A stretch of DNA of 64,000 nucleotides from contig NZ_FQYR01000002.1 in assembly GCF_900141815.1 (NCBI RefSeq), positions 907,091 to 971,090 on the forward strand, given 5' to 3'. Positions 10,799 through 18,232 of the stretch are shown piece after piece (within the stretch, counting starts at the first letter, position 1; every line of letters starts with the position of its first letter). The notes under the pieces are model-generated. The model searched no databases and had not been told where the DNA came from. It saw only the letters and a list, made by a program, of their open reading frames with translations. The stretch comes from Rubritalea squalenifaciens DSM 18772 (lineage in GTDB: Bacteria; Verrucomicrobiota; Verrucomicrobiia; Verrucomicrobiales; Akkermansiaceae). Both the position numbers and the translations under genes were made by a program.

Positions 10799-12187
10799 TC
10801 AGGCATTCGCCGGATCGAGCAGGGAATCGAGCTTCTCTTTGCTGATTCCTAGCTGGTTCAGGTTCTCCAGGCAAATGTCACGGACGGTACGCTTTTCCTG
10901 CATCGCTTGCTTGGCGATCTTTGACGCTTGATCGTAGCCGATAATCGGGGCGAGGGCGGTAACCATGGCCGTGGAGCGTTCGATCAGTTCGGCGCAGTGC
11001 TCTTTATTGGCCTGGATGCCTTGCAGGCATTTCTCCCTGAAAGCATGCATGGCGCTGGAGAGCAGGCTGGTCGATTCCAAGATGGTGTAGGCCATCAAGG
11101 GCATGAAGGTGTTCAGGTTGAGTTGCCCACCGGCATTGCAGTGCTCAACGGTGCTGTGATTGCCAAAGACCCTGGCACAGACCATGGTCAGGGATTCACA
11201 CATCACGGGGTTGACCTTGCCGGGCATGATTGAGGAGCCGGGCTGGGTGGCTGGCAGGGTGATTTCTCCAAGACCACAGCGTGGTCCTGAGGCCAGAAGT
11301 CGTAGGTCATTAGCCATTTTGAAGAGGGCGGTGGCTAGGGTATGCAGGGAGGCGTGGGCGTGCACCAGGTCATCCTTCGAGGATTGCGCCTCGAAATGAT
11401 TTAAGGCCTCGCGGAAAGGAAGCTTGGTGAGATCGACTATCTCCTCGGTCGCCATGCGGGCAAAGCCATGTGGGCAGTTGATTCCAGTCCCTACGGCGGT
11501 TCCTCCTAATGGAAGCTCATAGAGGCCGTGCATGGCTTCCTTGATCCGGTCGATGGCTTTTTCCAGCTGGCGGGCGTAGCCGGAGAATTCCTGACCAAGG
11601 CGCATTGGGGTGGCATCCATCAGGTGCGTGCGGCCAATTTTATAAACCTCGTGAAAAGCGTGGGCCTTCTCCAGTAGGGCACCGTGGAAATGGTGAAGCT
11701 CCGGCAGTAGCTGGTGCTGGAAGGCGAGGGCTACGGCGATGTGGATGGCAGTAGGAAAAGTGTCGTTGGAGGACTGCGATTGGTTGACGTGGTCGTTCGG
11801 GTGGATGGGCTTCTTAGAGCCAATTTGCTCTCCGGCGAGTTGGCTGCAGCGGTTTGCAATGACCTCATTCATGTTCATATTGGTCGAGGTGCCGGAGCCA
11901 GTCTGGAAAATGTCCACGGGGAACTGCGCCGCATGCTGGCCATCGATGATCTCATTAGCCGCCTGGCAGATGAGTTCCGCGTATTCCTGCGGAATGATAT
12001 CGAGCTTCTCATTCGCTTTGGCCGCAGCGAGCTTGATGATGGCAAAAGCTTGGATGATGTCAGGAGGTACAGGAGTGCCACTGATGGGGAAGTTTTCGAC
12101 GGCGCGTTGTGTAGAGGCTCCGTAGAGCGCTTCGGATGGGATGCGGACTTCGCCGAGTGAGTCGGATTCAATGCGTGTCTCTGACAT
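10799..12187 (-). CDS. fumC: Fumarate hydratase, class II
   Basis: A 462-residue protein that interconverts fumarate and L-malate in the TCA cycle; class II enzymes are iron-free cytoplasmic homotetramers. The family signature GSSIMPGKVNP lies near residue 318, and the substrate-site motifs GSGTSTNMNMNEVIANR, SQSSNDTFPTA and GRTHLMDATP are intact. Length is normal. It is transcribed away from the nitric oxide synthase gene, with only about 36 bases between the two starts. No unusual features. Confidence 0.97.
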   Translation of the reverse strand: MSETRIESDSLGEVRIPSEALYGASTQRAVENFPISGTPVPPDIIQAFAIIKLAAAKANEKLDIIPQEYAELICQAANEIIDGQHAAQFPVDIFQTGSGTSTNMNMNEVIANRCSQLAGEQIGSKKPIHPNDHVNQSQSSNDTFPTAIHIAVALAFQHQLLPELHHFHGALLEKAHAFHEVYKIGRTHLMDATPMRLGQEFSGYARQLEKAIDRIKEAMHGLYELPLGGTAVGTGINCPHGFARMATEEIVDLTKLPFREALNHFEAQSSKDDLVHAHASLHTLATALFKMANDLRLLASGPRCGLGEITLPATQPGSSIMPGKVNPVMCESLTMVCARVFGNHSTVEHCNAGGQLNLNTFMPLMAYTILESTSLLSSAMHAFREKCLQGIQANKEHCAELIERSTAMVTALAPIIGYDQASKIAKQAMQEKRTVRDICLENLNQLGISKEKLDSLLDPANA

Positions 12188-12223: not shown

Positions 12224-13366
12224 ATGGAGAATTTCATGAATCTGGTATTGGTTGACGGGCTGCTTATGCCGTGGCTGTATGTGTGCGTGCAGCAGCGTGA
12301 CGCAGAACAGAGCCTGAGCGAGGCAGGAGCATTCTTGTGCCAGATGGCTCAGGAGGGGGGAGAGGTGTCTGCTTCACGTATGGATGATGTTAAGTCCCAG
12401 CTTAGTGAGCAGGGATGGTGGCGGATGAACCAGCAGGAGCTGGAGTGGGCAGGCAAGTGGGCCTGGCGCAACAGCGAGAAGTGCATCGGGCGTCTTTTCT
12501 GGGAAAAGCTGGAAGTGGTGGATGCTCAGGATGTCACCAGCGCCGCTGAGGTGTTTAAGGCCTGTATGCAGCATTTAAGGAAGTCGACCAACGGGGGGAA
12601 AATTATCCCGATGGTAACCTTCTTCCCGCCGAAAAGGGCAGACGGTTGGGAGATCAAGATTCACAGTCACCAGCTTGTGCGCTACGCGGGTTACCAGCTG
12701 GAAGACGGCTCAGTACTGGGCGATCCGGATCAGGTGAAGATGACCCAGTGGGCGATCGAGTTGGGATGGCAGCCGCCAGCAGATAAAAGCCAGTTCGATG
12801 TCCTGCCTCTGATCATCGAGTATCCCGGTGAGGGCGTGAAGTGCTTCCCTGTACCTCAGGATGCCGTGCTGGAGGTGCCGATCATTCACCGTGATTTTGA
12901 TTGGTTTGCTGAGCTAGGGCTCAAATGGCATGCCCTGCCGGCAGTTTCCAACCGGGTGCTGGATGCTGGGGGGATGCAGTTCACGGCGGCGCCTTTCAGT
13001 GGCTACTACATGGGCACGGAGATTGGTGCGCGTAACTTCGGGGACACCTACCGCTACAACATGCTCAAATCAGTGGCCAAGATGATGGGGCTGGATACCA
13101 GCAAGGGGGACAGTCTCTGGAAAGACCGGGCGATGATCGAGCTGAACTCGGCGGTGCTCTACTCATTCCGTCAGGCGGGGGTGACGATTGTTGATCACCA
13201 CACTGCTTCGCGCCAATTTTTACAGCATATCGATAACGAGGAAAAATGTGGGCGCACGGTGCCAGGTCAATGGAGCTGGATCGTTCCTCCTATTTCAGGG
13301 TCTGCTTGTCCCGTGTATCACCGGGGGTACAGTAAGGAGCGTCCAAAGCCTCGCTTTAGAGGATAG
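12224..13366 (+). CDS. nos: Nitric oxide synthase oxygenase (bacterial type)
   Basis: A 380-residue protein matching bacterial NOS oxygenase, which makes NO and citrulline from L-arginine using haem, O2 and a pterin or folate cofactor. The haem-ligand motif WRNSEKCIGR holds Cys87, YYMGTEIGARN holds the arginine-binding Glu266, and GLDTSKGDSLWKD, IVDHHTASRQF and GQWSWIVPPISGS are all family hallmarks. There is no fused reductase domain, as in Bacillus and Deinococcus, so electrons must come from another flavoprotein. A second ATG at 12236 has a GGAGA ribosome-binding site five bases ahead and could be the true start (376 residues). The gene is divergent from fumC with a very short gap and is followed 70 bases later by a GYF/CD225 protein. 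Confidence 0.95.
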   Translation: MENFMNLVLVDGLLMPWLYVCVQQRDAEQSLSEAGAFLCQMAQEGGEVSASRMDDVKSQLSEQGWWRMNQQELEWAGKWAWRNSEKCIGRLFWEKLEVVDAQDVTSAAEVFKACMQHLRKSTNGGKIIPMVTFFPPKRADGWEIKIHSHQLVRYAGYQLEDGSVLGDPDQVKMTQWAIELGWQPPADKSQFDVLPLIIEYPGEGVKCFPVPQDAVLEVPIIHRDFDWFAELGLKWHALPAVSNRVLDAGGMQFTAAPFSGYYMGTEIGARNFGDTYRYNMLKSVAKMMGLDTSKGDSLWKDRAMIELNSAVLYSFRQAGVTIVDHHTASRQFLQHIDNEEKCGRTVPGQWSWIVPPISGSACPVYHRGYSKERPKPRFRG

Positions 13367-13435: not shown

Positions 13436-14026
13436 GTGAATTCAATGATGTCGAGAGAGTGGTTTTATATGTCAGCAGGCCAGAAGCATGGGCCGTTTGA
13501 GGAGAGTGAGCTGAAGTCCAAGTTGGTCAGAGGCGATATACGCTTTGATGTGCTAGTGTGGAGCGAGGGGATGAGCGGCTGGAAGAAAGTGCAGGACATT
13601 CCTGACTTTAAGGATGTCGAACGCAGTCTCCCCAAGGCGGTGATCCCTGCTAAAAAGATTCCTCCGAAGCCCGTCGAGCAGGCAGCAGGCCCAGTCATGG
13701 GGAGTGCTACGGAGCCTCAGGAGAGTAGTCCGGGTGCCAGGATCCCAGAGAGACGGGAAAGCAGGAGGAGAAGCAAGCCTCAGACTGGTAGCCCTTATGT
13801 GCCAAACTATCTGGTGCATGCGATTTTTTGTACGATCTGTTGCTGCCTTCCTTTTGGGATTGCAGGGATCCTCTATGCTACGAAAGTGGAGACTTATGTT
13901 AGACTGGGGATGATGGACGCCGCCTGGGATGCATCCAACAAAGCCAGGATGTATTGTCTGACCTCGATCATCAGTTCGGTCGTCGTTTTTGCTCTCTATT
14001 TTTTGATCGGGTTTGCACAGCTATGA
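13436..14026 (+). CDS. GYF_2 domain and CD225/dispanin-like membrane protein
   Basis: A 196-residue protein. Residues 1-60 are a GYF_2 (DUF4339) domain (WFYMSAGQKHGPFEESEL ... VWSEGMSGWKKV), a peptide-binding-like module common at the N-termini of bacterial membrane proteins. A polar, basic linker runs to about 120. Residues 122-196 form a CD225/dispanin-type pair of membrane helices (IFCTICCCLPFGIAGILYATKV ... SSVVVFALYFLIGF) around the conserved loop. Function is unknown in bacteria. The next gene (DUF2752) starts 3 bases after the stop, so the two are co-transcribed; such pairs are common. The first codon may be GTG or ATG; the chosen start is GTG at 13436, with in-frame ATGs at 13445 and 13448. 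Confidence 0.8.
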   Translation: MNSMMSREWFYMSAGQKHGPFEESELKSKLVRGDIRFDVLVWSEGMSGWKKVQDIPDFKDVERSLPKAVIPAKKIPPKPVEQAAGPVMGSATEPQESSPGARIPERRESRRRSKPQTGSPYVPNYLVHAIFCTICCCLPFGIAGILYATKVETYVRLGMMDAAWDASNKARMYCLTSIISSVVVFALYFLIGFAQL

Positions 14027-14029
14027 TCT

Positions 14030-14440
14030 ATGTTGAAGGCGTTCCAAGTCCTGAGTGAGCATTGGAGGAAACTGTGCCTGGCGGTACTTCCGTTAGGCTG
14101 TGCTGTAGTCGCTTTTCTGGTGTACACCAAGAGTGTGCTATTGCCTCCTTGCTTGTTTAACCAGTGGACAGGTCTTCTCTGCCCGGGCTGCGGTATGACC
14201 AGAGCGTCTCATTCCCTTCTTCATGGCGAGATCGCAGCAGGTTTTGCCTATAATCCGCTGGGGGTCGTCTTATTGCCAGCGCTTTTATATGGCGTCGGGC
14301 AAGAGTTGATCGCGTGGGCTTGGGAAAAGCCTGAGTGGCGCTTACGGCTTGGGGCCAGGTTGCCACTCATCATGGCCATCCTCGTGGTAGGCTTCGGCAT
14401 TCTCAGGAATCTTCCTGGCTTTGATTTCCTGAGGCCGTGA
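14030..14440 (+). CDS. DUF2752 membrane protein
   Basis: A 136-residue small membrane protein with the DUF2752 signature LLCPGCGMTRASHSLLHGE (about residues 48-66), where the CPGCGxTR core is conserved. Likely membrane segments lie at about 14-34, 76-96 and 110-130. Biochemical role unknown. It follows the GYF/CD225 gene by three bases and ends five bases before the stop of a minus-strand gene, so transcription converges here without an obvious terminator. Confidence 0.85.
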   Translation: MLKAFQVLSEHWRKLCLAVLPLGCAVVAFLVYTKSVLLPPCLFNQWTGLLCPGCGMTRASHSLLHGEIAAGFAYNPLGVVLLPALLYGVGQELIAWAWEKPEWRLRLGARLPLIMAILVVGFGILRNLPGFDFLRP

Positions 14441-15677: not shown

Positions 15678-16439
15678 CTAGCGGGCCATCCAACCACCAT
15701 CGACTAAGAGGATCTCCCCATTGACATAATCGGAGGCCTGGGAGGCGAGGAAGACGGTAGGTCCCACGAAGTCCTCTGGCTTGCCCCAGCGTCCGGCCGG
15801 GATGCGGGAGAGAATTTGTTCGGAGCGAATCGGGTCGTGACGCAGTGCCTCCGTGTTGTCCGTGGCGATGTAGCCGGGGGCAATGGCATTCACATTGACC
15901 CCCTTGGAAGCCCATTCGTTAGCGAGAGCTTTGGTAAGCTGGCCAATGCCGCCTTTGGAGGCTGCGTAACCTGGAACGGTGATGCCACCTTGGAAGGTAA
16001 GCAGGGAAGCGGTGAAGATGATCTTGCCTGATCCACGCTTGATCATCTCAGCGCCAAACTCACGGGAGATGATGAATTGTGAGTTGAGGTTTACATCAAT
16101 CACCTTGTCCCAGTATTCATCTGAATGCTCTGCTGCGGGGGCACGCAGGATGGTGCCGGCATTGTTTACCAGGATGTCTGGGGCGTCGTGTTCATCGAGC
16201 ACGGTTTCAATAAATTTCTTTAAGCCATCTCTGTTAGAGAAGTCGCACTGGTAGGCGGTAAATTTTCTGCCAGCAGCGGTGACTGCTTTTTCCGCGTCAG
16301 AGCCTGAAGTTTCCAGAGAGGCGGATACGCCGATGACGTCTGCCCCCGCTTCGGCGAGGCCTTTAGCCATAGCGAGACCGATGCCGCGCTTGCAGCCAGT
16401 GACGAGAGCTGTTTTTCCTGATAGATCGAATAGTTTCAT
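15678..16439 (-). CDS. kduD: 2-dehydro-3-deoxy-D-gluconate 5-dehydrogenase (SDR)
   Basis: A 253-residue short-chain dehydrogenase. It reduces 2,5-diketo-3-deoxygluconate to 2-keto-3-deoxygluconate with NAD(P)H, the step after KduI. Visible are the nucleotide-binding motif TGCKRGIG (residues 14-21), NNAG, the catalytic serine in FTASLL, the YAASK catalytic pair, and the C-terminal VDGGWMAR. It is the last gene of the uronate operon, 20 bases after dctM. The SDR family is certain; the substrate is assigned from close match to the KduD pattern and its place beside kduI and kdgK. Confidence 0.93.
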   Translation of the reverse strand: MKLFDLSGKTALVTGCKRGIGLAMAKGLAEAGADVIGVSASLETSGSDAEKAVTAAGRKFTAYQCDFSNRDGLKKFIETVLDEHDAPDILVNNAGTILRAPAAEHSDEYWDKVIDVNLNSQFIISREFGAEMIKRGSGKIIFTASLLTFQGGITVPGYAASKGGIGQLTKALANEWASKGVNVNAIAPGYIATDNTEALRHDPIRSEQILSRIPAGRWGKPEDFVGPTVFLASQASDYVNGEILLVDGGWMAR

Positions 16440-16459
16440 AGATAGTAGATCGTTGCTGT

Positions 16460-17743
16460 TTACTCAAAAAGTGATGGGAGCCAGAGGGAGATGCTGGGAA
16501 TGTAAGTAATGGCTACTAATACCAGAATCATGGCGATGTAGAAAGGAAGCATCGCGCGGGATACCTCGGCGATCTTGGCTTTGCCCACTGAGCAACCGAC
16601 GAACAGGCAGGTGCCTACGGGTGGGGTGCAGAGGCCGATGGACAGGTTGGCAATGAGCAGGATGCCGAAGTGAATCGGGTCCATGCCGAGGTCGATCGCT
16701 ACCGGCAGGAAGATCGGGGTGAAAATCAGGATCGCTGGAGTGATGTCCATGAAGGTTCCTACTAACAGCAGGGCTATATTGATAATGAGCAGAATGACGA
16801 TGGGGTTGTCAGACAGAGAGAGTAAGGTGGCGGAGACAAGCTGAGGCACCTGCTCAGCGGTGAGGAGCTGGGACATGGCTGACGAGGCTGCCACCAGAAA
16901 GAGAACCACGCCTGTGGTGCGGGCCGAACGCGCGATGACCGCTGGTAGCTCTTTGAGAGAGATTTCCCGATAGCAAACGCAGGCGAGCAGCAGTGACCAG
17001 ACTACAGCGATGGCAGAAGCTTCTGTCGCTGTGAACCATCCTGCGAAGATTCCGCCGAGGACGATTACCACGAGCATCAGAGAAGGAAGTGCAGAGAGGA
17101 AGGCGGGAACAAACTCGACTGTCTGGCCCGTAGTGTCCTGCCCATAGCCTTTCTTCTTACAGACGATGAGGCAGGTCACCATCAGGACGAAACCGAGTAA
17201 GAGACCGGGAACAATGCCCGCGAGGAAGAGGGATGAGATAGAGACTCCAGATGCCACCACAGCATAAACGATCATCGAGTTGGATGGCGGGATGAGGAGA
17301 CCTGTGATGGAGCCGGCGGTGGTGACGGCCACGTTGAAGTCCTTGCCGTAGTTCTTCTTGTTCATTTCAGGAATGAGCGTGTTGCCGATGGAGGAGACGG
17401 CGGCAGCAGCGGAGCCCGAAATGGAGCCGAAGAGCATGCAAGTGAGAGTATTGACCAGTGAGAGACCGCCGGGAATACGGCCCACCAGGGCTGAGGCGAA
17501 GTTGATGAGCCTGCGTGCCAAACCACCAGCTCCCATCAAGTCACCAGCCAGAATGAAGAATGGAATCGCCAGCAGGGAGAAAGAGGAGACGGAGTTCGCC
17601 ATGTCACTGGCGATGTTTTGCAGGACATCCGTGTCCCCAAGCGAGATCGCAGCGAGCAGCGTGGCGATGCCCACGGCAAAGGCGATGGGGACTTCCAGCA
17701 GAAGGAGGCAGATGAAGGCGATGATGAGGATGGCGAGGAACAC
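16460..17743 (-). CDS. dctM: TRAP transporter large permease (DctM)
   Basis: A 427-residue integral membrane protein with about 12 hydrophobic segments, starting MFLAILIIAFICLLLLEVPIAFAVGIATLLA. Motifs typical of DctM are GSISGSAAAAVSSIGNTLIPEM, AGSITGLLIPPSNSMIVYAVVASGVS and NLSIGLCTPPVGTCLFVG. With DctQ and DctP it forms a sodium-driven, binding-protein-dependent importer of acidic sugars. Its place between kduI and kduD indicates import of unsaturated uronates or their keto forms. It starts 15 bases after the dctQ stop. Confidence 0.96.
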   Translation of the reverse strand: MFLAILIIAFICLLLLEVPIAFAVGIATLLAAISLGDTDVLQNIASDMANSVSSFSLLAIPFFILAGDLMGAGGLARRLINFASALVGRIPGGLSLVNTLTCMLFGSISGSAAAAVSSIGNTLIPEMNKKNYGKDFNVAVTTAGSITGLLIPPSNSMIVYAVVASGVSISSLFLAGIVPGLLLGFVLMVTCLIVCKKKGYGQDTTGQTVEFVPAFLSALPSLMLVVIVLGGIFAGWFTATEASAIAVVWSLLLACVCYREISLKELPAVIARSARTTGVVLFLVAASSAMSQLLTAEQVPQLVSATLLSLSDNPIVILLIINIALLLVGTFMDITPAILIFTPIFLPVAIDLGMDPIHFGILLIANLSIGLCTPPVGTCLFVGCSVGKAKIAEVSRAMLPFYIAMILVLVAITYIPSISLWLPSLFE

Positions 17744-17758
17744 AGTGAGGAATTCTTT

Positions 17759-18232
17759 TTAGGAGTTTTCCACGTCTGAGACCGTGGAGTGTGGCTGCGC
17801 TTTTCCATCTTTCTTGGGCAGAAGATTCGCAAGGGCAGATAGGCAGATGAAGACACCAGCGATAGGCAGTGAGAGATAGAGCCAGCCCTTGGAGATGCCG
17901 AGGGAGGGCATGAGTTGCCCCATAGAAAAGCGTTCTAACATGAGATTGGTCCCGCCGTAGAGGAGGACGGAGGCTGCAAAGACCAGGATCAGGAAATGGC
18001 TGATGAAGAGAGCCATTCTTCTGGTGGCGTCATCAAACTTCTCCACCAGAATGTCCAGTCCCAGGTGTGAGTTCTCCGCATAGGCGAGCGCCCCACCGAG
18101 CATGACTGTCCAGACCAGCATGAATTCGGAGAACTCCGAAGTCCAAGTGAAAAGCTTGAGAATGACCATCAAGACAGTCACGAGCAGGGAGGTCAAACAG
18201 ACCGCGCAGATGATACGGAGGAGCTTGAGCAT
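17759..18232 (-). CDS. dctQ: TRAP transporter small permease (DctQ)
   Basis: A 157-residue protein with four membrane helices (about 8-30, 43-60, 78-103, 120-143) and the DctQ signature EFSEFMLVWTVMLGGALAYAENSHLGLDIL. It is the small membrane subunit of the TRAP importer. Its start codon overlaps the dctP stop by one base (TAATG), implying translational coupling. Confidence 0.95.
   Translation of the reverse strand: MLKLLRIICAVCLTSLLVTVLMVILKLFTWTSEFSEFMLVWTVMLGGALAYAENSHLGLDILVEKFDDATRRMALFISHFLILVFAASVLLYGGTNLMLERFSMGQLMPSLGISKGWLYLSLPIAGVFICLSALANLLPKKDGKAQPHSTVSDVENS

Follow-up and report, generated by a model that had tools for sequence, protein, structure and literature searches.

The window analysed here, the whole stretch of 64,000 nucleotides from Rubritalea squalenifaciens DSM 18772, contains a gene whose product, judged from its sequence, is a real, ordinary and probably working type I bacterial nitric oxide synthase (NOS). 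NOS is a frequent accessory gene in the Akkermansiaceae outside one genus-level group, labelled g2 in our samples. Three features of these enzymes are new and merit follow-up: a valine at the position that governs NO release, N-terminally short forms, and two gene neighbourhoods that associate NOS with H-NOX.

The gene, its divergent neighbour and the elements discussed below have the following positions in the window:

10799..12187, minus strand: divergent fumC-like gene of the class II fumarase/aspartase superfamily (open reading frame, NCBIfam and Pfam), 36 bases from the NOS gene
12224..13366, plus strand: NOS oxygenase coding sequence, 380 amino acids (PF02898), with an alternative start ATG at 12236
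12226..12229, plus strand: GGAG (by eye), which may be the ribosome-binding site of the ATG at 12236
12305..12418, plus strand: N-terminal segment, approximately residues 28-65, absent from most NOS of the family (segment profile and starts of the Pfam matches)
12482..12484, plus strand: codon of the haem ligand Cys87 (alignment; C in 84 of 84 covered genomes)
12944..12946, plus strand: codon of Val241, in a column that holds Val in eNOS and Ile in the Bacillus and Geobacillus NOS
13019..13021, plus strand: codon of the arginine-binding Glu266 (alignment; E in 84 of 84 covered genomes)
13271..13279, plus strand: pterin-site motif W350-S351-W352 (alignment; each W present in all 84 covered genomes)

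The 380-codon open reading frame has a single Pfam match, PF02898 (NO_synthase), which scores 477.4 bits against a cut-off of 22.7 and is full-length: it covers residues 28-378 of the protein and positions 3-354 of the 362 of the profile. None of the NCBIfam models matched. The closest solved relatives are the NOS of Geobacillus (2flq, E-value 4e-109) and bovine eNOS (1e-108); identity over aligned columns is 47% to each of them, and 45% to the NOS of B. subtilis. Cys87, Glu266 and W350-S351-W352 are present, and Trp81 and Arg270 also align with the solved enzymes; from known NOS structures, we take these residues to be the haem-thiolate cysteine and its stacking tryptophan, the arginine-binding glutamate, and the arginine and tryptophan of the pterin site. 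The original prediction of a complete, stand-alone oxygenase is thus borne out: the catalytic residues are where it had read them, Pfam detects no fused second domain, and no reductase gene adjoins. The enzyme is expected to be active. Its true start may lie 12 bases later, at the in-frame ATG in position 12236, since a GGAG, spotted by eye, precedes that codon by six bases. The gene is present in one copy in its own assembly (4,322,488 bases in 17 contigs, 96.7% complete). Predicted structures had a mean pLDDT of 42.6 for this protein and of 44.2 for a short NOS of 328 amino acids (locus L020), too low for use.

In order to compare the active sites, we aligned one NOS from each of 86 NOS-bearing verrucomicrobial genomes of the phylum and family samples with 10 plasmid NOS and 3 solved enzymes. 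Residues W81, C87, E266, R270, W350 and W352 are invariant in all 84 genomes that cover each position, the two gaps being contig-cut or split frames; at position 82, arginine is found in 82 genomes and lysine in 2. Position 241, which we presume to correspond to Val338 of eNOS, behaves differently: it is isoleucine in the Bacillus and Geobacillus enzymes, valine in eNOS and in the window NOS, and, over the 84 covered verrucomicrobial genomes, valine in 40, isoleucine in 24, leucine in 19 and methionine in 1. The ten plasmid NOS are evenly split, with five valines and five isoleucines. A passage of PMC6104048 states that isoleucine at the NO-release position occurs in all bacterial NOS, a mark of type I enzymes in whose place the window NOS has Val241. 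Because the verrucomicrobial counts contradict it, we take this generalisation to be wrong, and the window NOS to be, on its sequence, still a type I member; the rule fails in about half of the verrucomicrobial NOS examined. Val241 is predicted to give a quicker release of NO than in the Bacillus enzyme, and the natural variation between valine and isoleucine offers direct tests of what sets NO release.

The original prediction described bacterial NOS as known mainly from Firmicutes, Deinococcus and a few others. Such rarity is outdated in view of the counts in the window's family, where 73 of 260 genomes, belonging to 7 of 16 genera, have a match to PF02898, and of a freshwater study of 2017, which reported a NOS gene in an Opitutae MAG as “common to other reconstructed MAGs” (PMC5673642). 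Because of that report, NOS in Verrucomicrobia is no longer novel in itself; the passage reports the gene, and contains no analysis of residues, tree or partners. In the phylum sample, the family matches 18 of 387 genomes and 16 of 198 genera, and NOS is present in 2 of the 12 genomes of the window's genus. The large family group g2, which we infer to be Akkermansia itself, had no match among the genomes listed. Fourteen plasmid records match PF02898, nine of them annotated as nitric oxide synthase oxygenase (hosts Nostoc, Rhodococcus, Natribaculum, Rhizobium, Deinococcus, Staphylococcus, Micromonospora, Novosphingobium and Jannaschia), and NOS matches two phage records, both of Staphylococcus.

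Does a verrucomicrobial clade of NOS exist, a point that the original prediction proposed to check? In the sample used, a largely verrucomicrobial one does. The tree has 62 rows, 49 verrucomicrobial and 13 others, and thus takes in 49 of the 86 genomes: 35 genomes without an extracted locus were left out, as were G160 and G357 (fragments or split frames), and G601 was lost with the removal of its duplicate L020. A branch with 97/94 support has 48 of the 49 verrucomicrobial rows on the same side; the exception is L003 (G204), which sits beside Rhizobium. The window NOS pairs with that of G558, of the same genus, with support 100/99. Since the other phyla are represented by plasmid genes and three solved enzymes only, and no root was inferred, a single verrucomicrobial origin is suggested and no more. 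Within the verrucomicrobial part, the NOS of the window's family are scattered over several distant places, which points to transfer or old duplication in the history of the family.

Many of these proteins differ from the window NOS at their N-terminus. A profile of the segment corresponding roughly to window residues 28-65, built from ten verrucomicrobial and two solved proteins, was run on the region ahead of the haem motif in 82 of the 86 genomes, the other four being without the anchor motif. Thirteen sequences scored with an E-value below 1e-10, ten of them by construction since they are in the profile, five scored between 3e-5 and 2e-3, and 64 had no score. The segment is present in 8 of the 70 NOS examined in the window's family; likewise, the Pfam match begins no later than profile position 10 for 8 of the 73 family NOS. 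Inspection by eye indicates that many segment-lacking NOS begin about 15-20 residues before the haem motif, and that other short ones have an unrelated N-terminus with a CP[FYHV]...RRW stretch, for example L061, L087 and L160. L071 and L076 likewise start with CPFH, and KatG contains a similar CPFH stretch. The tree places three segment-bearing NOS, those of the window, of G558 and of G517, outside a group of 25 rows from family members, and we therefore read the short form in this group as derived. That many family members live with a NOS without this segment makes them a test of which parts of the fold a bacterial NOS can do without.

We consider it likely that the window enzyme works as type I bacterial NOS do, turning L-arginine into N-hydroxyarginine, and this into citrulline and NO, while reductases encoded elsewhere supply the electrons. 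It would be a haem-thiolate oxygenase, presumably a dimer, with tetrahydrofolate or tetrahydrobiopterin as its putative pterin. Electrons would be supplied in trans, the candidate donors being two stand-alone CysJ-type diflavin reductases, and NO would be removed by a flavohaemoglobin-like protein of the same genome. As a default guess, by analogy with Firmicutes, its role may be cytoprotection or the tuning of respiration.

CysJ and the animal NOS reductase have their domains in the order Flavodoxin_1, FAD_binding_1, NAD_binding_1. The genome of the window encodes two Flavodoxin_1 proteins, both with FAD_binding_1 and NAD_binding_1 domains. Relatives at 45-75% identity are found in members of the genus that do not have NOS; because these reductases are not specific to NOS-bearing genomes, a CysJ-type donor, chosen from a search for flavodoxin domains, is a guess out of several possibilities, which include ferredoxins and ferredoxin reductases. 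Bacterial NOS are described, in the relevant passages of PMC6104048 and PMC3701330, as using non-specific cellular reductases and probably tetrahydrofolate. The window's genome contains a GTP cyclohydrolase of the FolE2 type and a PTPS-family protein, and a FolE-type enzyme was not found in it. A 405-amino-acid protein with globin, FAD and NAD domains fits a flavohaemoglobin.

A conserved flavodoxin or ferredoxin-reductase partner, which the original prediction suggested looking for, did not emerge either from the clustering of proteins of 41 NOS loci or from the families listed for the neighbours. Besides NOS itself, the widest cluster spans 7 of the 41 loci, and consists of LuxR-type response regulators at varying distances. 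We also compared 153 nearest neighbours of NOS with 103 control genes four positions off, genes being called crudely as longest open reading frames: the 25 Pfam families listed for each set include no redox family. Flavodoxin (PF00258) is found in 47 of 48 NOS-bearing and in 71 of 130 NOS-lacking family genomes at least 90% complete. We rejected this co-occurrence as evidence for a partner, because g2 is without NOS and mostly without flavodoxin, and because most of the listed matches are CysJ-like frames of about 600 amino acids.

The genes near the window NOS are, according to Pfam, the fumC-like gene, a GYF/CD225 membrane protein gene, a DUF2752 gene and a sulfatase gene. The GYF_2/CD225 membrane protein gene and the DUF2752 gene (13436-14440) follow NOS on the same strand after a gap of 69 bases, and it is possible that NOS transcription reads through into them. 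Further on, at 15678-18232, a KduD-like dehydrogenase gene adjoins two genes for membrane proteins that resemble, by eye, subunits of a TRAP transporter, which suggests uronate use.

Could these neighbours reveal a more specialised function? The 36-base gap and the divergent orientation of fumC had been correctly predicted; the identity of the gene is likely but not certain, since its best match, the fumC model TIGR00979, reaches 599 bits, below its curated cut-off of 664.75, while an aspartase subfamily model, at 579 bits, is above its own cut-off of 510. With fumC so close to NOS, and with argG lying back to back with a CysJ-type reductase gene, one of the two in the same genome (L135, G000:C4, around 522-525 kb, G000 being the window's genome), one may imagine a local citrulline-NO cycle in which NOS and fumC, together with argG and argH, would recycle both citrulline and fumarate. 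Neither adjacency recurs, however: no fumC-like gene was found near NOS in the other 85 genomes, in flanks from under 1 to about 9 kb, argG does not adjoin the reductase in any of 18 such regions from other genomes, and only 2 of the 12 genomes of the genus have a strong match to the window fumC. A functional link between fumC and NOS is therefore not supported; we rejected the cycle as deduced from these adjacencies, and regard it as very improbable. We give equally little credence to a NOS-like enzyme that serves a biosynthetic pathway, by nitration or N-oxidation, instead of making free NO. Some plasmid NOS do lie in apparent biosynthetic clusters, in Novosphingobium, Jannaschia and Nostoc: SDR and aminotransferase genes are found near the Nostoc gene, and a radical SAM gene is directly upstream of NOS in the plasmids of Novosphingobium (L099:1412-4212) and Jannaschia (L100:1346-4173), the two genes perhaps being a biosynthetic pair in these alphaproteobacteria. 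However, there is no biosynthetic gene among the four kinds beside the window NOS.

A third alternative is that the NOS of the family are mainly dedicated sources of NO for an H-NOX or two-component signalling loop. The arguments for it come from two genomes. In G450 (L051:6641-12904), an H-NOX gene (143 bits) comes about 80 bases after NOS, and next to it a kinase gene whose product combines HNOBA, HisKA, HATPase and receiver domains; kinase and response-regulator genes precede NOS, and the response regulator, NOS, H-NOX and the kinase that follows are on one strand. In G457 (L145:5968-12153), NOS and an H-NOX gene are about 3.3 kb apart, and a regulator gene occupies part of the interval. 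Two such cases in 86 genomes compare with about 0.04 expected in the flanks examined (P about 0.0008), a rough figure, calculated after the fact on the assumptions of uniform placement and 4-Mb genomes. We found no published report of a NOS/H-NOX gene pair in what was searched, chiefly non-subscription literature and including parts of PMC6195638, PMC8738867 and PMC9500659. Against this alternative, the window's genome has no match to H-NOX (PF07700), and in the family, where 29 of 178 genomes have one, the two genes do not co-occur beyond expectation: H-NOX is found in 8 of 48 genomes that have NOS and in 21 of 130 that lack it. Nor is there a clear excess of response regulators around NOS: Response_reg is found in 5 to 7 of the 153 nearest neighbours (4 in the first 76, 1 to 3 in the other 77), versus 2 of 103 controls; the Fisher test assumed 6 of 153. 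HATPase_c, found in 4 of 77 near neighbours of the second half and at least one of the first, versus 4 of 103 controls, shows no clear excess either. We thus hold a mainly signalling role to be unlikely, and have the same doubts about a broader picture, in which the Akkermansiaceae would hold a lineage of fast NO-releasing NOS with a valine gate, partly shortened at the N-terminus and in some members wired to H-NOX phosphorelays. Were it true, it would be a bacterial counterpart of the animal pair of NOS and guanylate cyclase, with one cell making and sensing NO as a signal; the two neighbourhoods allow a test of whether bacteria signal with NO of their own making.

Other signalling genes were observed near NOS. 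Three genomes of genus group g204 (L063, L064, L086) share an arrangement in which genes for a GAF/PAS histidine kinase and for a LuxR-type response regulator lie downstream of NOS, on its strand. In G464 (L153:78-3102), NOS comes after a small gene that carries a histidine-phosphotransfer motif, and a response regulator gene points away from this small gene in divergent orientation. This motif, searched as such and not with Pfam, is convincing just upstream of NOS in G450 and G464 only.

An ordinary type I enzyme is thus the reading that we retain. With the type I NOS of Bacillus, Geobacillus and Staphylococcus, the window NOS shares the single oxygenase domain, 45-47% identity over aligned columns, and the residues of the haem, arginine and pterin sites; it departs from those of Bacillus and Geobacillus by having valine instead of isoleucine at the NO-release position, and its PPISGS..PVYH stretch is nearer to eNOS. 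The oxygenase domain of animal eNOS has 47% identity with it, and has in common the valine at position 241 and the PPISGS motif, but the window protein, an oxygenase domain only, is without the N-terminal zinc hook, the calmodulin site and the reductase. Finally, the self-sufficient NOS of Sorangium type is described, in a passage of PMC3701330, as having an N-terminal 2Fe2S-FAD-NAD module; the window NOS has the oxygenase domain in common with it, and does not have this module. A fusion like that of Sorangium does exist in Verrucomicrobiota, with added cyclic-nucleotide-binding domains: in G160 (L081:3-2648, minus strand, with L082), two such domains, Fer2_BFD and FAD_binding_6 precede a NOS domain that is cut by the end of the contig.
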